Positions 6,101-38,867 of a stretch of DNA of 64,000 nt are shown here, piece after piece. Within the stretch, counting starts at the first letter, position 1, and each line of letters starts with the position of its first letter. Under the pieces are notes generated by a model, which saw only the letters and a program-made list of their open reading frames with translations, searched no databases and was not told the DNA's origin. Location: assembly GCA_037783545.1 (NCBI GenBank), contig JBBELK010000164.1, forward strand, positions 1,798,001 to 1,862,000. The letters run 5' to 3'. The stretch comes from Henricia sp. BOLD:AAB3569 (lineage: Eukaryota; Echinodermata; Asteroidea; Spinulosida; Echinasteridae). The position numbers were made by a program, and so were the translations under genes.

Positions 6101-9100
6101 TTTTAAATGGGGTTAGTGAGGTATTTACGACAAATTTTAATTTTTTTTAGTCAAGTACTTAAGCCCTGTCTGCATTTTACTTTTTGGGGGAAACTTAGCG
6201 AGACGATATTTCGCATTTTAAGTTCAATGAGGACAGCCCAGGACATTTTCCTTTCAGTAACTTTTCCCGAGTCCAGCAGTTACTTTTTTTGGCCAACTGC
6301 TGCCCAGGAAAATTGACCAGGTAATTTCCCCCCCACACCCCCCCGAGACAATAATTCCAATACGGACACAATCGAGTTGGCATAAGGGTCATTCTATAAA
6401 TTTGGGGTCCAACGTGTGACATTTTTCTGTCCCCGTTACACCTGACATACTGCTATTTGCCATACAAGTATCATTAAAAATGCCTTCAAACCATATTTTT
6501 ATGAATTGTATTTTATGTAATCACTCTTTGAAATAGAAGGCATTTAAAGAATATGTCCTGAATTTACAAAATACAACATTTTACAAGATGTCGAGGTAAC
6601 GGGGACAGAAAAAGTGGACCCCAAATTTATAGAATGACCCATAAGCACTCTGGATACGTCCAGGCCGTGAAGGTCATACTGCGAAGGGACACTGCGCATG
6701 CTCTCCTTCAGTCTCGGTAAAATGTCTTTCTCCAAACCTGGCAAATCTTGCTGAACTTGTCCACACTGACCGTGTCTCCTTCAAGACCCTCGTCACTAGA
6801 CAAACTAATTGGCTCCTCCCTGCTAACTACAACATCTTCGGACTCAACCTCGAATATTTGGGAACCAAAGTTGGTCTTGCTTCTCGATGTTGTCTTGCTA
6901 GTGCTAGCAGTATCTCGTGGGGTTGTGCTCTGCCTTCGAGTGGTAGATTTGGGTGTTTGTTGGACCGTTTCATGGTGTTCTTTGGCTGAAGGCTGTGTGT
7001 TTGTTCTGGGAGCAGTTTCGTTGTTTGACTTTGGTGTGCTGTGCGAGAAAGGAAAGTGTGATAAAAACAAAACAAAAAACTATGTTTAGCATAAGTTGAA
7101 GTCCCCCAAAATGATGTGGTGACGCAGCTTTTTTCCCCACTTTTTTGGGGGGTTAGTGGATTTCCAAGCAATAAAGGCATGTTTTTAAATGAAAAACTCA
7201 ACAGACGGTGCGTGTCTAAATAAAAATAACCTTTGACGCGCAGGGTTGAAAGTTGAAACATTTTTATTTTGTTTGGCCTTAATTATCTCAATTTTTGTTG
7301 GGATATGGCATTTACTGCATTTTGCAATGAAACTCTTTGTATAAAGATCTCACCTTTGTTTATTTTTTCTATCATTCAGAAGCTTTCTCATTGCTTCTGC
7401 AGTTTCCGCCCCCGAAAAATGCTTCCCAAGAAACTGTCTTTGCCTGTTGGTGAAACTGTCCACGAAATCATAGATGTCCTCATCACAAAATTGTTCATCT
7501 CGATCAAGTAGATTTTGGGCGGACAATCGTGGTGCATCTCGTGGCTGTTCGATATCGGAAAGTTCTGGGCTTGCAGGTGTCTTTTTATATTTTGTTTTAG
7601 GCTGGTTTTTGGAGGTGGACGCCTTGTCTTGATTTGGTCCGGGTGTATCTTGTAGAGGCCGCTTGGTAGTTGTCTTGGAGAACGGGCGAGATGGGATTTC
7701 TGGTTGATTGTCATCGGAAAGCTCTTCAGGACTTGTTGGGGTTCGCTTCTTGCGACGATTTTTCTTCTTCGGAGGAGACTTTGTTTTGGCTGGAACCTTA
7801 GAAACGGGTTTTGCTAACTTCTTCGGCTTCTTCTTGCCACCTGGTTGTTTTAAGCCGATTTCTTTGCAACTGTCGGTGTCCAATAACTCGTAAACGGCAA
7901 ACTCTGGAGATTTCTTGGGTGCGGCCTTGGGGCGGATTTTTCTTTTTCTTGCTTGTTTTCTTTCCTTTTTCTTTGGTTCACGTTGTTTTAAGGGAGATAT
8001 TTTCTTAAATGTGACAGATTCGGATTTCTCTACGTCCGAGTCGTACTCGTAGACTGAAAAATCGAAAGGACCTTGGCTCAAACTTGAAGACTTTTTCAGT
8101 GATTTGGAAGACGCTTTCTTGGCACTTTTTGGTCTTGCGGGGGTTTTCTCGTCGGAGCTACTGGGCTCAAAGTGCAGGGTTAGGGTCTTGTTAGCGCCAG
8201 AGGAGGGCGATTCTTGCTGGCTTAGGGACAGAATTTCCTTCGTTGCTGCTTTAGCAGCTGCTCGCTGTCTTTTAACTCTTGGTCTGGTTTCGTCGTCGGA
8301 ATCAATTGCCACTTTTTCTTTTCGTGCGGCAGGCGGATTTTTATCCTTGACAACTTTCGCAGGATTCTTCCTCTGTTTTCCCCTTTTAGGATGAGATCCC
8401 ATCTGGGACGTAAACTCCAGCTGTGAAAGCTCCTGGCTTGATTCGGGCGATAGAAGGCGCGTTTTGCGGAATGCCCGTGAAGGCGGTATTGATATTGGAC
8501 TTGTGACATTTCCTGGGTCATAAGTAGTCACTTCTACAATTGTGATTACTTCGGCCTCGTTGGCAGAACTCTGTTCTCTGACTTTCTTGCAGTTGGGGCT
8601 GATTTTCGGAGCCTTTTCCAAGTTCATATAATCGTTTTCGTCATCTGCATCGCCAGAGGAAATTGATCTTCCTTTAGACTTTCTTTTCTCCTGACGTTTA
8701 TTATCTCCAAGACTATAGACGTCTTTTCCGCGACTTGCGTGGGAGGATTTCCCATGGCTGTTTCCTGCGAAAGCTGTTGTTTCTGGTAAATCTTCTTCGA
8801 TTATCTGTTCTTGCAAGGGAGTAGGAGCAGTTTTGTGATGTCCAGTGCCGGATTTGAAATGTTCCAATTCACTTCCTAAGAAAAATAAAATAAAAAAGAA
8901 CTAAACATAAATCTGATTAATAATTTTCTTAAATATTGTCAAAGCTATGATACCAAGACATGCGTAACTGTTTGTGAAATTTTTTCAAAGGAGCGTGTTC
9001 AGAATTTTCTAGAAAATGGATTTCGTTTTCACCTAAGAATCATGTACCTCCCCCAAAAAACTAGGGGGAAAAACAGGAAATTTGCAATCTCCAATTTAGA

Positions 9101-12100
9101 TGCGGAAGCAGAAAGGTTGGTGAATTAGTTTACAAAACATCGGTGGTTTTCTTTACGATATCCTTAAAAACATACGGATTGGGAATGCAAAATTTCAGAA
9201 TGGTAATGAGAAAAATATATGAAAATTGATATGGTATAGAAATCTCAACACCCATGAGAAAAATGGGAGGGCTTAAAAATGTGATCTGGTCACACTCCTT
9301 TAAGTAGTCCACACTATTTAAAAATTGCACTGGAATTTCTTATTAAAAATTTGCTAACTTGGAAAAGTAATTTTTACAAATGCATCAAAATGTCACACTT
9401 TGGCTCCAGATTTTATTGAATAAGTTAGTGACTTGTGGATTTGTTGTAACATTTAAATAAAAAAAAATTGATCCCTAAAATGGCGGCCATTGCAAAAGAT
9501 CTATTGAACTTGTGTGATATTCGTAAACATACTTACCGCTCAATTGAGGTGTAGCTATCTTTTTGCCCTTGCTGCGAGAGCTCTGTGTGCTTTCTTCTGT
9601 CAGAGTGCTGAGTGACGGACTGTGTGCTACAGGGTAACGCGGATGCACTTCAAAATCACTCTGATTACTGCAAGGAAAAAAAATTTAAAAAAAATTACGA
9701 TACAAATGTGGACAAATGTCCAGATGAGTTTGGGAAATCTGGATGCAGTGAAAAACAACTTGTACCTCAGTTGTACCTCACTGATTGGGATTGGCTATCA
9801 CGTGAGCTTAGCAAGCCCTACAATGAGATAACCACCCCTACCAGAGATCATTTAAGATACGCCACAAACCCCTGCCCCAATTTAAAAAAAATTACTACAA
9901 AGATGCAAAAAACCAACAGGAAATTTTTGGCAGTAAATGAAACAGTGTACATTTTACACATGTTTTTACAGTACAATTGTTAAATTATTTTTAAAAATTT
10001 ACATTTTTAAAAATATTTTTTATTTTGTTTACCTTGGTGGAATGCTTAAAGAGTTAGTCTTCTTTCCAGCCTGTGGTTGTCCGGACGGAGGCAGTGAATC
10101 TGGAATTACGTCTACTGCTCCCTCTTCTGTGGGAATCGAGCTTGGAATTAAGGCATCTGGGAAACCAAAAAATAAATTCTTGATGTAACAACTACTATGA
10201 CACTTGTGTTACATTTTAGGCCGTCCCGGTTACGAGCGTATATTGGAAAATAACTTACTATGAGTAGTGTACAAGTTATTACTTTAAGACAACTAAGCTT
10301 ATACCGATGCTACATGGAAACTGCTGTATTTTTTGCCCAAACTTATATCAGTCCTTGGAATTAAATTTAAAACAAAGAGGGGTCTATAAAATGATAAATA
10401 AAGGGATTTACTAGTAAAGATTTTTAGAAGTACCTTTATCCAATGGGTCCTTTTCACAGCTGCCACTTTCACTATAAAGCCTGAACTTCCTCGACGATTT
10501 GGTCTTCGAATTTTTCTCCTCCCCTGAAGATGTTTTCTTGTCCTCACTGTGAGATGCGCTGGTCTCTCGAAGATCTTGATCAGGCATTGCAACTCTAGTT
10601 GCTTTAGGTGGGACACGCGGCCGGAGCTGTCTTTGGGCGTAGTGCTCGTTGCTTTTTAGAGAGTCGTGCATAGGGTCCGATTTTGTGCCGTCGAGGTGTC
10701 TGTTTTGGATTTTGGAAGCTGTCGATCTGCGACGCTTTTGATCCACGATTGCTGTGTCGGACCGGTGCCCCGCATTGGTTTTACCATCGTCAGTGTCGAA
10801 CGCTTCGTGGCTGCCGCGTTGTATTATCCTTGCTTGTTGATGCTGTCTTTGGATGTAGCGCTCGTTTCTTTGGATGTAGCGCTCGTTGCTTTTACGAGAG
10901 TCGTGCATAGGGTCCGATTTTATGCCGTCGTCGGTGTCGAGGTGTCTGTTTTGGATTTTGGAAGCCGTGGAACTGCCACGCTTTTGATCTACGATTGCTG
11001 TGTCGGACCGGTGTCCCGCATTGGTTTTCCTATCGTCCGTGTCGAACTCGTCCGTGTCAAGGTGTCTGTTTTGGCTTTTGGCAGCTGTCGATCTGCGACG
11101 CTTTTGATCTATGATTGCTTTGTCAGGTCGGTGTCCCGCGTTGGTTTTACCATCGTCAGTGTCGGACGCATCGTGGCTGCCGCGTTGTATTATCCCTGCT
11201 TGTTGGAGTTGTTGTCGTAATTTGGACGGCGTGCCGCAGGAGCTGATGCTGAGGCCTGATGATATCGACGCTTTTTTGTTGATGGAGTGCGTTGACGCCG
11301 TGGATTCGTTTCCGCTGTCGATGGCTTTGTCGGCGCCTGTGATTTGAAGTGGTGTTTTCACTCGCTTCGCTGAGGATGAAATTCTGACTGGAGTTTTGGG
11401 CTGAGCAAAATCTGAAAAATTGTGATCCCAGCTCATTAAAATACGATAGCACCATTGAAATTCCGGACAGTACTTGAACATTTCACACAGTATCCTGGAA
11501 AAATACTGATTGAGAGTGTCAAATTTTAGAATGGGGATCTGGTCAAAGATCGGATCTAGTCGCCTTTCTTTATAAGTCTGGATCTTTCACGGATTCATTT
11601 TCTGGTCAAATAGTTTAATAAAATTGTAAATCACGTATACAGGTTTTAATCAAATTCCGTGAATTTCACCAAACTTACCACCAGTTTTTCTAGGTATTGG
11701 CTTGACTGAAATTCCCGAGAACGCAGTGCTGTGGTTTGATTCCGCTGTCGACACGGATCTTACACTACCGCAAACGGACGACACGTCCGTGGTGGAGTAG
11801 TGGGAAGGTGTCTTCATGGGATTGCATGTTGCGGATACTTTAGAACTGGTGGAAATGCCTGACTTAACGTTGGCGTTTGGTGCTTTTGGAACCTGGAATT
11901 GAGGGAGTGAAGAAATGAATAGGTGGTTGGTATTACAAAGCCACGGCTATGTCGGCAATGCTATAACGGTTGTCTTGTGAGGGCGCTCACCCGCTCACCT
12001 GCCACCCCCACCCCTAATAATAATAGGGACCATTAGAAATTATACGCGTACGGGAAACGTATGCGGCTCGGGAAAATTCGGGTGGTTGTATCACAAGTTT

Positions 12101-27038: not shown

Positions 27039-27918
27039 CGCGAAAGTAGTTTGGCGCCTTGCTCCAAATGATTTGCTCCAAATTGCAATAAAACTCATTT
27101 TGGCGGGACCAGTTTCACCGAACTGCAAGTTTCTAACGACCCTGGATTTTTTGGAACCGTATATTTTGTGACAATTCATGCGTGTTGGGAATTCTACACC
27201 AGTGACCAGTAAATGACACAGCCACAGATTATATATTATTATAATGAAGCTTACTTTCATATCGTCTCTGGCATAATTAAATGAAAGAGTACCAGACATG
27301 TCAAAAATATTAACCGATAGTCGATACACGTCTGTGCGTAATGACAAGGTTCAAAAGGATAGCACATGGCGTTTTGAAGGTACCATAGTACCAGTGTAAA
27401 ACATTTTATAAATTATGTACAAGTTCATATGGAGTTTATGCAGCATATTTCACAAGTGGTTTTAAAAATGCGGGAAAAAGCTGGGAATTTCCCTCGTCAG
27501 TGATATTTGGAGCTAATGACTAGAAAAACTAAGTCGTTGCGTCATAAAGATGTTTCTGCTTACGATCGCGAAACTAGACCCATTGTACGTGCAGTCACGA
27601 CAGGGGCAGTCGCGTCATGCACGAGTAGGCACTTTGTGGATCTATTGTCACATTTAAATATGAAAACCTGCCCCGTCATGGCTGCCTGTACAAAGGATCT
27701 ATAACATCATACTCCTACATTGGTCAGAGTTGTTCTTGCTCTGTGGGTTTTTAAAGTTGGACGTTCGCACAAAAAAATATATAGGAAATGGCGATTGTTT
27801 TGGTATTTATTCGTGACTTTATTGAAGAATCCAGCTAAAACTTACAAAAATAATTATTCCCGTTTAAACCGCAGTGGAATGCTCATAATACAAAATAATT
27901 TTAAAGAAGGATGTGTAT

Positions 27919-28197
27919 GCGACCCGCTCTAGAAAAAGGTAACAAAGGTCGCGCTGGCTAGGTCGAGTTTTTGCGACCATAAGAAGAAATCTGTTGCAGA
28001 TCCACGCTCATTAAAATACAAAAACACAATGGAAATTCCAGGCGAAACACTGACATTCCAGGCGGTATCTGGGCACCGCCAGGAATTTCCATTGTGTTTT
28101 TGTATTTTAATGAGCGTCGATCTGCAACAGATTTCTTCTTATGGTCGCAAAAACTCGACCTAGCCTGCTGGACTTATGCTACCTGTTTCCAGAGCGG
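27919..28197. mobile_element. Foldback MITE, GACCCGCTCT family, copy 1
   Basis: Arms pair from GTCGCGCTGGCTAGGTCGAG through TTTTTGCGACCATAAGAAGA and ACGCTCATTAAAATAC to GGAAATTCC; the centre holds ACATTCCAGGCGGTATCTGG. The outer left end is GACCCGCTCT, the right end CCAGAGCGG. Related to 30367-30688. Confidence 0.75.
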
Positions 28198-29840: not shown

Positions 29841-29936
29841 TCATTTACTCAAAGTGATGGCCAAGATTATTCCTATGGTGAGCAAAATAGCCACAAAGAT
29901 TATCAAGATGCATAGCATTTTCTTGCGTGCTTTTGT
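29841..29936 (-). CDS. STX12: Syntaxin alternative last exon B (membrane anchor)
   Basis: Same length (96 bases), same phase and same layout as exon A: CCACAG acceptor, TKARKKMLCIL, hydrophobic core IIFVAILLTIGIILAIT, ending LSK and TGA. Only one cysteine before the membrane segment and a lysine at the very end. It lies 1.6 kb downstream of exon A, so use of B requires skipping exon A and its poly(A) site. Confidence 0.85.
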   Translation of the reverse strand, partial: TKARKKMLCILIIFVAILLTIGIILAITLSK

Positions 29937-32900
29937 CTGTGGAAAAACAGAAAAGTCAGGGATATGTAGTTAAACCTCGTTATAAGATGAGTCTTGTATT
30001 ATCAGGAATGAAAACGACGAAGAAATTAGACAGATTTTTTTATATAGGCTACATCGAATAGCTGCCATGTTGTAAGGCAGTTTCTTTGTTCCTTGAGGAC
30101 ATGCATGGTTTGCACATTTTGTGCTTACATTGTTGACCAATTTAAATGACAAAAGCTGCCCTACAAGATGGCAGCTATTTGATTCAGTCAATACTTAATG
30201 GCACACTAAGCAGATGTTTCACCAGCTGAGCTAAGAGGCAGTGCTACATAATGACTAAAAGAACTAAAATTGCATGATACTGGGTATAATTTAGACTGTT
30301 CAATACATTGATCAAGGATATTTACACATGGTGCATTATCTGTATAGATACTCTACATGTATATATGTGACCCGCTCTGCAAAAAAGAGTCACAAGTCGC
30401 GCTGGCTAGTATTCTTTTTGCGACCATAAAAAGAAATCTGTGGCATTTCTACGCTCATTAAAATACCTAAACACAAAAGAAATTCCAGGGGGAACACAGA
30501 CATTCCAGGGGGAACACAGACATTCCAGGGGGAACACAGACATTCCAGGCGGTATCTGGGCACCGCCAGGAATTTCCATTGTGTTTTGGTATTTTATTGA
30601 GCGTTGATTTGCCGCGGATTTCTTTTTATGGTCACAAAAAGAATACTAGCCAGCGCGACTTGTGACTCTTTTTTGCAGAGCGGGTCACATATACACATGA
30701 TCCATTATTTTTCATATACACCTATTTACATTTTCTAAACCTTTACCGAGGCCCTGAAATGAGGACAAGATGGCTGCTTCTATTGTGAAAAAAGCTATGT
30801 ACATGTTTACAGCACATGGATTGCCAGAGGCTCTTGTGGCCCCGGAATATGGACATTACTTAGGGAATGAAATGGGGTTGAACGTTCATAAATACCTTGG
30901 TGTAAATCCTTAAAACTTCACAGTTCATCACTTTCCTACATGCGTCGCGTTCGTTCAAAGTGCTGTGCGTACGTGTCGAAATGTTTTGTTCGATCATGCT
31001 CATTATGTGCATTGCACACGTGTTGTATGCGCACTGCACATGTGTTGTATGTGCACTGCAAACGTGTTGTATGCGCGCTGCAAACGTGTTGTATGCGCAC
31101 TGCACATGTGTTGTATGCGCACTGCACATGTGTTGTATGTGCACTGCACACGTGTTGTATGCGCACTGCACACGTGTTGTATGCGCACTGCAAACGTGTT
31201 GTATGCGCACTGCAAACGTGTTGTATGGGCACTGCAAACGTGTTGTATGCGCACTGCAAACATGTTGTAGCGCACGCACATGGCCCAGTAAACTGTCACA
31301 CTGCTTTAAATTTGCTTTCGGGTTACCAAAACATTTTTTGTGTGGAATGTGCGTGTGCATGTTTCTCGCTGAAACTGACTTGTACTGGGTAAACGAGAAA
31401 GTGTTTAAAACCAGCTGGGACCTCTATCGTCCGTTTAAGACCGGCCATGTGACGTGCTCTGGACCAATAGGAATGGGTACACTGTCTTAGATATTTAGTT
31501 ATGAAATTTGATTATGAGGATAATAGCGATGATGACCAGCACTGTGGCCAATGTTCCCAGCAGACAACACATTTTTCTGCGTGCTTTTTTCTGTGAAATG
31601 AAGAAAACATGAGATGATTTTGAAATGTGAAATGGATAGGAAGGATATGATAAGTACATCGGTCAAGAAAAAAATTCTTCATGGTATTTGAAATTGTGAA
31701 GAAATACTGAAATTAAACAAGGGAGAAACATATCTAAAGAAGAATGTTGCTAAACTAGCATGCAGAAATTTCAGCTACATAGATGTAGAAATGCATGCAT
31801 GGCGTTTGTGTTAGAAAAAGGTAAAAAAAATGTGTGAGCACTCAAGTTTTGTAAAACGCCCTTTAGTTGTTAATGTCTTGCAAAAAATACTATCTAGGAT
31901 GTTTGCTATTGCCATCAACACTTTGGGGGAGTTTTTTCTTGTCAAATCATGCAGTAAAATGTTGGTGATTGAAAATGACAGAATGGGCTTTAACTGTTGG
32001 TGAAAAAATACAGTAGTTATGCATGTTGGCAAACTGAAAGTGTACATTTGTATGTTTACAACAGGGATGTAGTCGAGTCCATCACAAGTCCTCACAAGTC
32101 CTCACAAGTCCACAGCAAGTCCCTGGGTCTTAATTCAAGTCACAAGCTATTCAAATGAACTCAACAAAGGCATTATTTTGTTCATCCTTTGCTTCTTGTT
32201 ACTGGACTTGTGCGGGACTTGTAGTACTTGTGATTTTATCGGCTCTGGACTTGTGATATACTCGACTACAACCCTGGTGTACAAACGTAATGCTTGTCTT
32301 GTATCTAGCTACAGTTGCATGTAAGAATGAGGGACTGGGAGTAAAGTCTATGCCTTACCTGGTATCTTTTGGCAGTCTGCAGTTGAGTGTTGGCGCCCTC
32401 TACATTACTATGCGCAGTGTCTATATTTGCTTCTATTGAATCTGCATGAATAAACAACAGGGTTTAAAAGGTTGACCTGAATTCTTTGAAATTGTAGTGT
32501 TCAGTAGTTTTATTTTGTTTGTATTTTTAAAGATAGATTAAATTTTTGGGACGTAGCAAATCCAGTACACAGACTTCAAATCCAGCGATTGATTTCACAA
32601 AAGTTAAGACGAGTTCAATGCATCCTAATTCCCATACCAACATCCCAAGATAAGAGTGACCCTTCCTAAGACGCGTTTTAGCGCTTTGTGAAATCTGTCC
32701 CTGGGCCCAATTTCATAGAGCTGTTTAACAGCCCATTTTCCGTTAACCGAGCGTCAGGCTATTTCATAGACATCGTTAACGGTAAGCAACTGAAAACCTG
32801 CCTTAACTGCAGAGCCAAATTTTGCTTAAGATAGTGACGCAACAATGGCGGTTTCCAAGCACGTGCATGCTTCAGCACTTCGCGGCCGTGAAATAGCCTT

Positions 32901-35900
32901 AACGTTAGCACAACTTTTCTGCTACAGTAAGCACACGTTTTCAGCTAGTGCTTAAGCAGCTCTATGAAATTGGCCCCATGTCATGTATTTAAATCAAGTA
33001 ACAGGTCTCGCTAGTTAGTACAAATTATCAACTAACCACTGAGACCTGGGATCGATTTCACAAACGTTCAGACGAGTTCGATGCATCCTAATTCCCATAC
33101 CAACGTCCCAAGATAAGAGTGACCCTTCCTAAGACGTGTCTTAGCGCTTTGTGAAATCGGCCCCAGGACTTTTATTGCAATGTAACCCTATGTGTATTGG
33201 CACTTACCGACAACATCAGCCTGGTCCGAAACCATTGCACTGAGATCTCGGAAAATCTCATTCACGTCTAACATTGCAGCCTGAAGACCAAATAATAAAA
33301 ATTACTTTAATTAAAACAAGATTAACAAAAGATTAAAAGCCAAATCAAACAATACAAAAACAAAATAATAATCTGAGGGATTATACCACTGTGCCTTATA
33401 GCTCAGCTGGTAGAGCATCTTCCCGGTGTGACAGAGGTCTAGGGGGAAACCTGAGGGAGTATACCACTGTGCATCATAGCTCAGCTGGTAGAGCATCTGC
33501 CTGGTGTGTCAGAGATCTTGGGGGAAACCTAAGGGAGTATACCACTGTGCCTCATAGCTCAGCTGGTAGAGCATCTGCCCGGTACGTGTGTCAGAGGTCT
33601 AGGGGGAAACCTGAGGGAGTATACCACTGTGCATCATAGCTCAGCTGGTAGAGCATCTGCCTGGTGTGTCAGAGATCTTGGGGGAAACCTAAGGGAATAT
33701 ACCACTGTGCCTCATAGCTCAGCTGGTAGAGCATCTGCCCGGTGTGTGTCAGAGGTCTTGGGGGAACCTGAGGCAGTCAAAATCTTATTTGATGTGTATT
33801 ACAATTGACTGGTGTTCTGCTATTCTTGCTAAGAACACAAGTTGGCATACTATTTTGACTCTTAACCCATTTTTATAAAGCAAACCGATTTTGGATTAAG
33901 CACAATTTTTTGCTAAACAGCTTTATGAAATTGGCCCCAGACCAACATACCTCAATCTGTCTAATCTGTTCCTCTCGACTTTCCAGTAGACCCGAGTCGT
34001 ACTCTATTTGCTGGTCTTGTTGCTGTAGTTGGGACTCTACCCCCTGTCGCCTTGCATCCTCCATCAACGATGCGTGATCTTCATCATGTACAACATCCTA
34101 CAAATAGAACAATCCTTAAAGGCCAAGTGTATCATTTGCAATGACCCCAAAAAGTAATCGACGAGTTTACAGGGGAAAAGTTCTGAAAGTAAAGATTGAA
34201 TTAATAGCAACTATCCAATGAAAGGTTTCCGCTCAAAATGATATAATTTTACCAGAAAATAATCCGTAAAGATTAAATTAGTTAGATAGTTTGCAAACGA
34301 TTTACTTAATTTTGGTTCGCATCTACGCGGTCCAAAATGCATGGGCGCTGTGTACTGCGTGTGCGTGTTCCAACGCGATGCATTTTTATGGATCGCGCGC
34401 ACACGCAGTATATGATGTGCGCCACAGAGTGCATGATGCAAGCCACATAGTACTCGATCAACTGAGAACAAATATTTGAAACACCCCGCCAAGACCAGAT
34501 GAACGCATACGGATTTTCATGGTTTTTTTAAACGTGGTACATTTGACAAAGCTGAAATTTCTTCGGATGAGTTTGTTGATGTCTTTTTTCTGATTTATAA
34601 TGGTTTTATTCGCAGAATCGCTCAAAAACAGATCATCTACAGGGCCTTTAAAGCGGATTCACACTGAGCCTTTTTGTGCATGACATTTATTTACTTAAAG
34701 GAGCTTGTTCAGATTTTTCCAGTAAATGGATTTCGTTCTAACCTAACAATCATATAAAATACCTCCCCAAAATACTATCCATGGGAAGAAAACAGGAAGT
34801 CTGCAATCTGTAATTTGGATGTGGAAGTAAGAAGGTTGGTGTAATCACTGCACTGCTTTATGGAACCAGATAAATTAGTTTACAAAACATCGGTGGTTTT
34901 TTGACAATATCCTTGAAAATATACGGATTGAGAGCGCAACATTTCAGAATGGTAATAAAAAAAATATGACAAATGATATATCAAAATCTTACCGCCCATA
35001 GGAAAAAAGGGGTTAAAAAATGTGACCTGGACACGTTCCTTTGAAGACAATTACAAAAAATTAGCCAGTTGTCGAATCAAATTTACAATCGTCAAACAAA
35101 ATATCTTCACTAAGTCTGAAAATGAATTGTTAATAATAATGACAATACCGTGCTGGTTGGTGGCGCTTTGGAAGGAACTGATGGGCATGATCTCATCTTG
35201 CTTGCAACTTTCTGCAGAGAAGAGACAAAAATTGCCAAAAAATGTAAGTGTACACGGTTTAATTTCTGTATTTAGATAAAAAAATGCATGTGCAGAATTC
35301 AGGCCTAAATGTAATAAAATTAGAGGCAGGTCACTTTGGCCCCGATTTTGTCTGAATTTCAACTTTGTTCCAAATGTGTACTGGTTATTAGTGTATACAA
35401 GTTTCATGAAATATGAGAGGATAGGGCATGCTGGCCAAGTTGGCCTCAGAAAGTGTATATCTTGAAGGGGCATCAGGGCCAACTCAGCAGGGCATGAGGC
35501 CATTGGCCTTGGTTGCCTTGGTTAATGTCAATGCCTGGGATAGGGCATGCTGGCCAAGTTGGCCCCAGAAAGTGTGTATCTTGAAGGGGCATCAGGGCCA
35601 ACTCAGCAGGGCATGAGGCCATTGGCCTTGGTTAATGTCAAGGCCTGGGATAGGGCATGCTGGCCAAGTTGGCCTCAGGAAGTGTATATCTTGAAGGGGC
35701 ATCAGGGCCAACTCAGCAGGGCATGAGGCCATTGGCCTTAGTGGCCTCGGTTAATATCTTATAATATAATGTCTTTATTAATATACCTTCTGAACTGCAC
35801 CATATCGTTGGACTGATTCTTGGTACTCGTTGGTCAGCCTGTCAACTTGTAGCCTTGAAGACTAAAGTACACAAAATGATGAAAAATAAATTCTAACAAA

Positions 35901-38867
35901 ACTGCAAATCTTGTTCTTTCAAGATACACATGCTCAGATTGGAATATAAATGTTTTAGTATAGTCTGCTTAGAATTGTACATTTTGGAAATTATATATAG
36001 AGGGATTTGTAAAGGAATTTCTGAAGAATTTGAAAAATCTTTTTCTCCAGTCACTGGGGACATCGTCAACTTGAGTCAGACTTGAGTCGAGTGACTAAAA
36101 CTTGGATTATAACAAACTACGGCATTAGTTTTTTTTTTTTTTTAACAAAGTGCCCTTTAACTTTATAGTTATTTATTAAGGAGTTACTTGCAACTTTAAA
36201 GGCAAGTTTGATCATATAACTGAGCCACGTACCCGTCCCAGCGTGCGCGCCATTATACTCATTTCTTTAATGGTAATCGTTGTCTCGTTGACGATTTTGT
36301 TGGTTGCCTGTAGGTTGGCTTGACTGAGGGAGACAAAACAAAACAAATCACTCAGAGAGAAATGTTTATGTCTTTGTTTGGAAACTTGAAGTGCAACAAA
36401 GACATGCTAAAGTTTTCATTGACTTGATGCAAATGTGGTTCAAATCGTTTGTTAATTCCTTGCTGCGCGAATTCCCCGACAGAATCGGCCAAAGACCAGA
36501 GTTTTTCAAAAATCATCTTAAAATGACATTTTTTATTCTATGCTTGGAAAGAATTTATCTTATAAAAAGAAATTTATCAAAACGTAGTTTGTTTTATTGG
36601 TTTGTCAAAATGATTACCTTTCAATGAGATATCAGGGAGAAAAGATTTTTGCTTCACATTCCTTCTGTTATTTTATTGACTAATATTTGAAAGTTAAAAT
36701 GGCCACTTTAACCCTAACCCTGCTCAATCCTCCATAATCAATATGATTTTACATACACCCTGGGGGGTTAGGGTTAACCTGACTTACATTCTGTTGCGAA
36801 GCATGACGCTATCGCTTGGTGTTCCAAGCTGACGGACAGCCTTTTCCAAGGTTGAAACTGCAGAGAGTTGGGGGATGAGGGGTAGAACGTCAGATAAAGA
36901 AAAAACACCAACTCCCCCAAAAAAATTTGTAATTGTAACCCCCATTCTGTATCTACATAACAGGCGACACGAACAATATTTTAGTTGCATACGAAAAACT
37001 AAGTGCAGTACAAAATGTCACAAAAGTATTTTTGGGAATTTTGATTATGACCTACTTTTGACCGACCTAGTACAACTTGCGATAACTCAATTTATAGCCA
37101 TGCCATTAAGTACATGTGCATTTCTATTCACCAACAGACCAATGCATTAAGCCCTGCACATATAGTGACACAACTACCAACATTACAGTGCGCAAAATCA
37201 GCGGACCACGTGGATTGCGAAATTTCACATGGATTGTTTTTCTTAACATTGATTGGCCAGCACTCAGATGACGTAGGCATAAATGTTTTCCGAATCAGTC
37301 CTTAACGGACGTTCCAACCCACTTATAGGCCTGCATGTAGACAGAGCTGAACTTCACATTTGCATAAAAAAAGAGAGAAAAAACTACCAGCAAAATAATC
37401 TGCATGTTATTAAATTTAATACAAACCGGTTTAACAGTCTGGGTTAGTTCGAAATGTAATTCACGAGTTCAATACAAGTCCCTGGACGTATGCCAAACTT
37501 TCATCACAATACATCAAAACTAAATTCATGCCTTTACAGTATGTGTGCGTGTGTTACACTATAAATTCACTTTACTGTGATATGGGTCATTCCGTGAAGT
37601 TAAAACAGTGTGACATTTGTTCATTTCCACAAAATGTTCAATAAGGGAGTCATTTGTATAATGATGTTGCATGATGTGGTGGCTTACACTGTTTGGGGTA
37701 ATTTCAAAGTCTTCAGTTTTGACGGAGTGTCACCATTTTGAATTATTTCACAAAGTGGTGGTTGTGGATGTAACTGGGACACCATGTTAGTTTAACTTTT
37801 TTTCACTCCGACTCCGAATGTTTTCATGTTGAATTTAAGTGGAATATAACCCTGTTCTTCTAAAAGCTTTTCATAATAAAACTCACCACTGTTGCTGATT
37901 TTGAAAATGGCCGAGCTGATTTGCTGGGAACGGTCAGCAAATTCATTGCTTTGTCCTATAAATGGACATAACAAAACAAGTTAGTAAAATTAAAAATTTC
38001 AGTCAGGTTTACCTGTAATGCTAGCCCACAGACTTATTACACAAATATTTTCGATTTATAATTTGTTTTTTTTTGGAAATTTAAATATGAAATGCTGTGA
38101 AGAAAGGAATGTTGGCTGTAAAATTGCAAAAATATATCCTATACTTGATACAAAACATTACTAAATTTCTGCAATTTTGTAATTCCAACAAAATCACCAG
38201 GTACTTCTTAAAATCTTCAAGATAATGGGAATCGATTCCTTGAAAAGACGGAATGCATAGTTCCAATCACAACAGAGCTAGCAGACAGCGCCCACATAGG
38301 TCAAAGTGATGCAATCATCACACAATCACGCGATTTTCTGCCCATACAGTTTGTATGTTGTATGCGCCAGTGACCGGGTGAATTTTGGTTTCAATGTCGG
38401 GCGATTCGCTGTTCAAAGGTAGGAAAGCGCATTTTTATGAATATATGTCATCCCTGCATTACTAGCCTTTCGCTCAGTGTGTGCTACGGTAACTATCGAC
38501 CCTAAAACATAAATACCTTTGAGATTTCTCCAATGAATCTGTGCTTTCCATGCCGAGTCCCGTTGCTTTGTACGTTGTGTGTCGCCATTTTTTGCGATGG
38601 CTTGCGAGCACATAGCAACAATATCTAAGGGGCGGGGTTAACTGGGCAATCTCGGAACTATGCATTGTAATTCTGATTTCCAAATTTCAATTGATTCTAA
38701 CTTTTTGAGTGTACACTTTATAAAATGTCTTTGCTGAAAAAGATTTAAAACAAATAAATTTCCTCACCTTGATTAGACTGCGGCGCTTCTTGCTGGTCGA
38801 CGTTGCGATTGTCCAGGGCTCCGTAGCCAAAGTCACCTCTGCCTTGCTGACCTGTCATGCCCGTCAT
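29841..38867 (-). CDS. STX12: Endosomal syntaxin (Qa-SNARE, syntaxin-7/12 group)
   Basis: Membrane fusion protein of endosomes. Common exons: 38768-38867, 37887-37955, 36788-36857, 36233-36323, 35787-35861, 35149-35211, 33951-34097, 33208-33280, 32359-32441; then one of two last exons, 31495-31590 or 29841-29936. All junctions keep phase and both isoforms have 288 residues. Domains: short Gly/Gln-rich N-terminus, Habc bundle about 35-135 (FADRSQQISSAIFKIS, KAVRQLGTPSDS, DRLTNEYQESVQRY), linker 136-175, SNARE motif about 190-252 (ESREEQIRQIE, MLDVNEIFRDLSAMVSDQ, SIEANIDTAHSNVE) with zero-layer Gln225, basic juxtamembrane KARRKM or KARKKM, one C-terminal membrane segment. STX7 and STX12 cannot be separated from this sequence; KKARRKMC resembles STX12 slightly more. 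Start ATG at 38867 opens the first frame (MTGMTGQQ). Confidence 0.93.
30193..30245 (-). repeat. tRNA-like SINE fragment
   Basis: The minus strand reads TGCCTCTTAGCTCAGCTGGT, a box A D-arm, with nothing recognisable after it. Confidence 0.4.
30367..30688. mobile_element. Foldback MITE, GACCCGCTCT family, copy 2 with expanded centre
   Basis: Ends GTGACCCGCTCTGCAAAAAA and its complement, ATAT on both flanks. Arms of more than 120 bp. The centre holds three tandem copies of ACATTCCAGGGGGAACACAG where copy 1 (27919-28197) has one. Lies between the two alternative syntaxin anchors. Confidence 0.8.
31020..31261 (+). repeat. 22-bp minisatellite, 11 units
   Basis: Unit GTGTTGTATGCGCACTGCAA plus AC, with sites varying as CAC/CAT/AAC and one GGGCAC. 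Because 22 is not a multiple of three and the unit has few stops, long frames are open on both strands; none is a gene. Confidence 0.9.
31495..31590 (-). CDS. STX12: Syntaxin alternative last exon A (membrane anchor)
   Basis: Phase-0 exon after a CACAG acceptor, 31 codons plus TAA. Encodes KKARRKMCCLLG, then a hydrophobic segment with ATVLVIIAIILIIKF and a short HN tail. Two cysteines just before the membrane could be palmitoylated. It is the nearer of the two anchors to exon 32359-32441. The 22-bp minisatellite at 31020-31261 lies immediately downstream and could be part of its 3' UTR. Confidence 0.85.
   Translation of the reverse strand, partial: KKARRKMCCLLGTLATVLVIIAIILIIKFHN
32586..33165 (-). 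mobile_element. Composite MITE dimer, inverted copy with nested insertion
   Basis: Two copies of the TTTCACAAAGCGCTAAGAC element with the same linker as at 2231-2541 (CAGGTCTCGCTAGTTAGTAC reads across it), interrupted near one linker edge by the element at 32703-32977. It lies in the syntaxin intron between exons 32441 and 33208. Confidence 0.75.
32703..32977. mobile_element. Nested MITE, GGGCCCAATTTCATAGAGCT family
   Basis: Ends GGGCCCAATTTCATAGAGCT and AGCTCTATGAAATTGGCCCC, internal CTGAAAACCTGCCTTAACTG and GCTAGTGCTTAAGCAGC. Same family as 18491-18714. Its position inside the dimer shows it inserted later. Confidence 0.75.
33382..33778 (+). repeat. Tandem array of tRNA 5'-half-like units (5 x ~78 bp)
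   Basis: Five units of 78-82 bp start at about 33382, 33460, 33538, 33620 and 33698. Each has TATACCACTGTGC, the D-arm/box A sequence ATAGCTCAGCTGGTAGAGCA, an anticodon-arm-like CCCGGTGTGTCAGAGGTC and GGGGGAAACCTGAGG. Two variants alternate, GCCTCATAGC with AGAGGTCTAG and GCATCATAGC with AGAGATCTTG. No TPsiC arm or box B. It lies in the syntaxin intron between exons 33280 and 33951. Confidence 0.85.
34697..35042. mobile_element. AAAGGAGCGTGTTCAGA element, copy 4
   Basis: The most complete copy, with both ends (AAAGGAGCTTGTTCAGA and TGGACACGTTCCTTT). Directly left of it (34515-34660) lies a piece of the 860-1240 repeat family. Confidence 0.65.
35425..35753 (-). repeat. ~110-119-bp minisatellite, inverted second array
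   Basis: Three units with CTTGAAGGGGCATCAGGGCC at about 35461, 35580 and 35690. Reverse complement of the array at 19457-19813, about 16 kb away, in the syntaxin intron before exon 35787. Confidence 0.8.
38252..38666. mobile_element. Element with AATGCATAGTTCC inverted ends, copy 2
   Basis: Inverted copy of 14117-14562, lying in syntaxin intron 1. Both terminal repeats are intact. Confidence 0.75.

Follow-up and report, generated by a model that had tools for sequence, protein, structure and literature searches.

How many proteins can one syntaxin gene make when it seems to end twice? The question arises in a 64,000-nucleotide stretch of the sea star Henricia sp. BOLD:AAB3569 (contig JBBELK010000164.1, positions 1,798,001 to 1,862,000; hereafter the window), where a predicted Qa-SNARE gene on the minus strand (38867..29841) has nine shared coding exons (38867 to 32359) followed by two candidate last exons, A and B. 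We built the gene model by reading the minus-strand sequence and joining exons at GT-AG borders (Table 1). An in-frame stop lies shortly upstream of the ATG in exon 1, and exon 9 ends in CAG. A preliminary description of this locus had proposed that either last exon would complete a protein of 288 residues, and the assembled proteins confirm it: the open frame with A or with B runs to 867 bases, 288 residues plus the stop.

The predicted protein is a Qa-SNARE of the STX7/12/13 type and groups with syntaxins 12/13 and 7, so that the earlier assignment to the STX7/12 syntaxins is borne out by both phmmer and Pfam. In a phmmer comparison with PDB chains (31 matched sequences), the highest ranks went to the STX13 SNARE motif (2nps_B, E 2e-18), syntaxin 7 (1gl2_B, E 9.6e-15) and the STX12 N-terminal domain (2dnx_A, E 1.1e-10), in that order, and syntaxin 1 chains scored below all of these; Pfam returned Syntaxin_2 (2.1e-26) and SNARE. 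The central glutamine, which we take to be the SNARE zero layer, is present, the query sDQadv aligning with hDQgdl and hEQgdv. With exon A and exon B alike, the protein ends in a single C-terminal anchor preceded by a basic patch. The STX13 chain reads YQKKSRKKM after its SNARE motif; after YQ, exon A supplies KKARRKM and exon B TKARKKM, and because both resemble the KKSRKKM of STX13, each exon would be a plausible continuation of the gene.

The two last exons share a common plan. Both comprise 96 bases including the stop, open in phase 0 after CACAG, and start 1654 bases apart, in agreement with the spacing of about 1.6 kb first reported; their translations likewise contain the basic patch KAR[RK]KM, the two cysteines of A against the one of B, and the tails FHN and LSK that had been read there. 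Base for base, 56 of 96 positions are identical and 40 differ. Within the first 21 bases 18 agree, and an alignment over the acceptor region extends over 29 bases at 86% or 39 bases at 82% (E 1.8e-4). When up to three mismatches are allowed, the first 21 bases of A occur at two sites in the window, A and B themselves, where 0.02 would be expected. The local alignment of the whole exons scores 16, above the maximum of 13.5 among 500 shuffles, and in tblastn the two anchors find each other (50% over 28 residues, E 0.005). Against shuffled order, the membrane segments share 8 of 24 residues (P 0.02) and, at the base level, 36 of 72 positions (P 0.0015). The 500-base flanks are without clear likeness, with a score of 11.5 upstream (shuffled mean 13.5) and of 13.0 downstream (shuffled mean 10.8, maximum 18.5), the latter about 1.6 standard deviations above the mean. 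The pyrimidine fraction of the acceptor is 0.76 for A and 0.82 for B, and spans 0.53 to 0.88 among the gene's eight other acceptors.

Both strands were also scanned for places where an acceptor is followed by a basic patch, a hydrophobic segment and a stop (22 to 45 codons, with at least three K/R among the first nine). Four places passed, with scores of 3.09 for A, 3.33 for B, and 1.91 and 2.36 for the other two. Sixty simulated strands, drawn from a first-order Markov model of the minus strand, averaged 0.22 passing places under the loose setting; under a stricter one, not a single place passed. We set aside a chance origin of the likeness because of the 21-base match, so far above its expectation, and the comparison of the scan with the simulated strands; by alignment, exon A and exon B are homologous at the acceptor and over the first 21 bases. 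A third anchor exon was also considered and rejected, as no other place in the 64 kb scored as well as A or B.

Are both exons maintained? Base identity between them is 20, 20 and 14 of 31 at the three codon positions, and the Nei-Gojobori method gives a replacement value of 0.47 and a silent value of 1.52 over the 31 codons. We also simulated neutral decay of one copy, which passed if it kept the acceptor AG, the exact frame, the stop and a membrane segment; indels, where included, occurred at 0.1 per substitution. After decay to the 56/96 that separates the exons, 2 of 3000 copies derived from A and 4 of 3000 derived from B passed without indels, and 0 of 3000 from either with them. Decay to 66/96 let through 17 (A) and 39 (B) of 3000 copies without indels, and 1 and 3 with them. 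The retention of these features at 56/96 therefore favours selection on both exons, less strongly if the two copies shared the change, and A and B both look kept by selection.

The explanation that we favour, at a probability of roughly 80%, is that this STX7/12-type Qa-SNARE gene carries a tandemly duplicated last exon and an alternative choice of terminal exon. Its last exon would have been duplicated in tandem long ago, and in the pre-mRNA exon 9 would be joined to A or to B; as both end in a stop of their own and require no donor, the choice would be exclusive. Two proteins would result, with a common N-terminal domain, SNARE motif and basic juxtamembrane patch; all their differences would fall beyond residue 257 and mostly concern the membrane segment, the tail and the cysteines. 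By inference, both junctions would be in use, cell type would govern the choice between them, and each anchor would incline the protein toward a different membrane.

The anchors themselves suggest what such a choice might accomplish. In anchor A the uncharged stretch comprises 21 residues, which are small toward the cytosol and bulky toward the lumen, and two neighbouring cysteines sit at the border with the cytosol; anchor B has a stretch of 24 residues, the opposite order of sizes and a single cysteine. Residue volume, taken over 20 residues as lumenal minus cytosolic, comes to +29 in A (permutation P 0.02) and to -9 in B (P 0.27 for a value as low). In the accessible portion of Sharpe 2010, plasma-membrane segments are longer and have smaller exoplasmic residues, Golgi segments have larger exoplasmic residues, and the set from the trans-Golgi network (TGN) and endosomes is of intermediate length; the same portion states that the rule separating Golgi from plasma membrane carries over partly to SNAREs, with 50% correctly predicted. 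Because the contrast between A and B has the same sense as that between Golgi and plasma membrane, anchor A would lean toward internal membranes and anchor B outward. The shorter A, with its bulky lumenal half, may thus direct the protein to internal membranes, and the longer B, with smaller lumenal residues, to a later endosome or a plasma-membrane-like destination. Tentatively, and with considerable doubt, we would go further and suggest that in this lineage an endosomal Qa-SNARE gained a regulated anchor switch independently of the plasma-membrane syntaxins: the two-cysteine A would hold it in internal membranes, and in some cells B would carry it outward, to the surface or to later endosomes.

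Several results weigh against the picture of two selected anchors with different destinations. The membrane segments alone give a local alignment score of 9.0, where 500 shuffles averaged 7.4 and reached 13.5 at most; the volume difference between A and B is weak (two-sided P 0.058); and the localisation of TGN46 is reported, in the available part of PMC10928510, to be insensitive to the length and composition of its membrane segment. The substitution estimate covers 31 codons only, and a maximum-likelihood method gave saturated values. In a more lenient form of the neutral simulation, which ignored the acceptor and set the hydropathy threshold lower, the share of 4000 copies that passed was 0.65% for A and 1.45% for B. 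No relatives were confirmed among 5 IMG/VR and 54 GTDB contig pattern matches, as is expected for an animal gene. Finally, at 76/96, with about half of the change on the tested copy, 157 of 3000 copies from A and 249 of 3000 from B passed without indels, and 13 and 24 of 3000 with them. Those passing rates without indels also favour the view that one of the two is a relic, left by the duplication and now either unspliced or spliced only as noise, with the gene making one protein. Consistent with a relic, the first AATAAA after A, and the only one between A and B (1.70 expected), lies at 30598 within an inverted-repeat element, and this element together with a minisatellite has widened the spacing between the exons; three AATAAA words follow B down to 28300 (28942, 28798 and 28555; 1.69 expected), a count that is not decisive on separate poly(A) sites. 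We nevertheless consider a relic unlikely, as neither exon, at 56/96, has lost the acceptor, the frame, the place of the stop, the basic patch or the strong hydrophobicity of its segment, a retention seen in at most 4 of 3000 neutral copies, and the acceptors of both look ordinary.

A different gene might instead end in B (or A), the likeness being merely the one general to syntaxin tails, but this is very improbable. That account draws on the shortness of the clearly alignable part, the acceptor and 21 bases, on flanks that are not clearly alike and on the modest match of the membrane segments, but the first 21 bases match beyond chance, and when the window was searched by tblastn with both isoforms, the anchors themselves were the only SNARE-like matches in the region from A to B. 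A non-SNARE exon upstream of B is possible, since 70 of the 111 GT dinucleotides between A and B, many of them inside the minisatellite, are preceded by at least 15 open phase 0 codons; the only GTRAG donor there comes after 22 unremarkable codons, although four of the nine donors of the syntaxin gene are not GTRAG either. With so many GTs after open codons and with such donors in the gene itself, we regard an unrelated upstream exon for B as unlikely rather than impossible. Downstream of B, moreover, the same strand carries a kinase frame that runs without interruption over 433 codons (26399-25098; Pfam Pkinase 2.4e-46). The chance that the two ends reflect an assembly error, two alleles or collapsed paralogues is slimmer still: a difference at 40 of 96 bases is far beyond allelic difference, and the nine shared exons each give a single blastn match in the window.

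A tandem duplication with exclusive choice of the last exon would have close parallels. In Caenorhabditis elegans unc-64 (syntaxin 1), last exons 8a and 8b encode anchors of equal length, 25 residues, and the choice between them depends on UNC-75/CELF, with UNC-64A mainly neuronal and UNC-64B non-neuronal (PMC4946901, accessible text). The sea star gene is similar in having two candidate terminal exons of the same phase, each with an anchor and a stop; unlike unc-64, which encodes a synaptic, plasma-membrane syntaxin, it is of the STX7/12 type, and here the whole membrane segment and the number of cysteines differ. Mammalian syntaxin 2 (epimorphin) likewise has two anchors, according to the same text (PMC4946901), and differs from the present gene in belonging to the plasma-membrane group. 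Differential splicing of mammalian syntaxin 3A/3B alters the C-terminal part (PMC11119284, available portion), where, unlike here, the SNARE motif changes as well as the anchor. For SLMAP, the accessible part of the source describes alternatively spliced tail anchors, TA1 and TA2, that differ in hydrophobicity, both of which target reticular structures including the endoplasmic reticulum and the second of which also targets mitochondria. SLMAP differs from the present protein in not being a SNARE. SNAP-25 is without a membrane segment. Its exons 5a and 5b arose by tandem duplication, are chosen exclusively and affect the palmitoylated cysteine region (PMC2581893, accessible portion); unlike in the present gene, the duplicated exon is internal.

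In presenting the twin anchor exons as unusual, the preliminary description may have been right about the family: we found no report of anchor-switching exons in the STX7/12 group, the accessible parts of PMC1794582 and PMC2712456 included, in a search that most subscription literature lay outside. It was too broad about the arrangement, as alternative last exons that change only the anchor are already known from the consulted accounts of unc-64 and syntaxin 2. The novelty may therefore lie in the occurrence of alternative anchor exons in the STX7/12 group, the design itself being known in syntaxins. If both exons are used, the gene offers a natural swap of one SNARE's anchor with the rest constant and the length unchanged, and with it a clean way to ask whether a SNARE is guided to its location by the length of the anchor, the bulk of the residues and the cysteines. 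It would also follow that endosomal syntaxins, and not only those of the plasma membrane, acquired anchor switching. The present gene could probably deliver its fusion protein to two kinds of membrane, as the worm and the mammalian syntaxin gene already do.

Sequence words near the exons were counted for hints of how the choice might be controlled. The word TGCATG, which we take to be an RBFOX-type motif, occurs three times in the 768-base intron before A (intron 9), where strand density predicts 0.26, and once before B (0.54 expected); the shorter GCATG occurs three times in the intron before A against 0.89 expected. RBFOX control of exon choice is a weak lead because TGCATG was one of eight words tried, is commoner than expected across the whole window (61 against 43.7), and is as frequent in other counting windows (11 of 1265 on the minus strand and 40 of 1265 on the plus strand). 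By word count only, the CELF-type word TGTGTG is absent from intron 9 and from the region between A and B, and GTTGT appears twice in intron 9 (0.96 expected) and not at all between A and B (1.95 expected); after B, the same counts find both words commoner than expected, TGTGTG twice (0.60) and GTTGT four times (1.93). No clear grouping of CELF-type words emerged from these counts, which bear on the regulator rather than on how the exons are arranged. The STAR-type word ACTAAY is absent from the three stretches counted, and YCAY is found 19 times in intron 9 against 12.3 expected.

Table 1. Predicted exons of the Qa-SNARE gene and the TGCATG-bearing stretch of its last shared intron, in window coordinates.
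Feature	Position	Strand	Basis or remark
Coding exon 1, starts ATG	38768..38867	-	in-frame splice, donor gtgagg
Coding exon 2	37887..37955	-	gene model
Coding exon 3, N-terminal domain	36788..36857	-	gene model, phmmer and Pfam
Coding exon 4, N-terminal domain	36233..36323	-	gene model, phmmer and Pfam
Coding exon 5, N-terminal domain	35787..35861	-	gene model, phmmer and Pfam
Coding exon 6	35149..35211	-	gene model
Coding exon 7, linker and start of SNARE match	33951..34097	-	gene model and phmmer
Coding exon 8, SNARE motif with central glutamine	33208..33280	-	gene model and phmmer
Coding exon 9, last shared, end of SNARE motif	32359..32441	-	phase 0 donor gtaagg
Candidate last exon A, anchor KKARRKMCCLLGTLATVLVIIAIILIIKFHN, two cysteines	31495..31590	-	gene model and anchor-exon scan
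Candidate last exon B, anchor TKARKKMLCILIIFVAILLTIGIILAITLSK, one cysteine	29841..29936	-	gene model and anchor-exon scan
Part of the intron before exon A that holds TGCATG three times (first bases 31953, 31799, 31764)	31759..31953	-	weak lead

The region between the two last exons has features of its own. Exon A is closely followed by a 22-base minisatellite of 12.4 copies (31004-31275), and an imperfect palindrome some 340 bases long (30356-30699) has 145-base arms that are 89% complementary and an internal 20-base tandem repeat. The element looks like a miniature inverted-repeat element, and a second copy, about 72% alike, is found 2.2 kb away at 27916-28197. Farther upstream in the gene, tandem repeats at 33337-33808, with plus-strand frames that read IAQLVEHLPG and SSAGRASA, presumably resemble the repeats that animal genomes have derived from tRNAs; within the 64-kb window, ARAGORN detected no tRNA and an Rfam scan gave no matches.

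Outside the syntaxin gene, the Pfam scan took in 10 of 291 long frames. Two open frames on the minus strand, 7353-8900 (516 codons) and 10414-11586 (391 codons), are lysine- and serine-rich and matched no Pfam family above the cut-off and no NCBIfam family, the closest approach being DUF359 for the frame at 10414-11586 (17.5 bits against a cut-off of 25). The kinase frame downstream of exon B, which we would liken to Mos, has MAP3K12 as its best PDB chain among the best 60 of 1970 matches.
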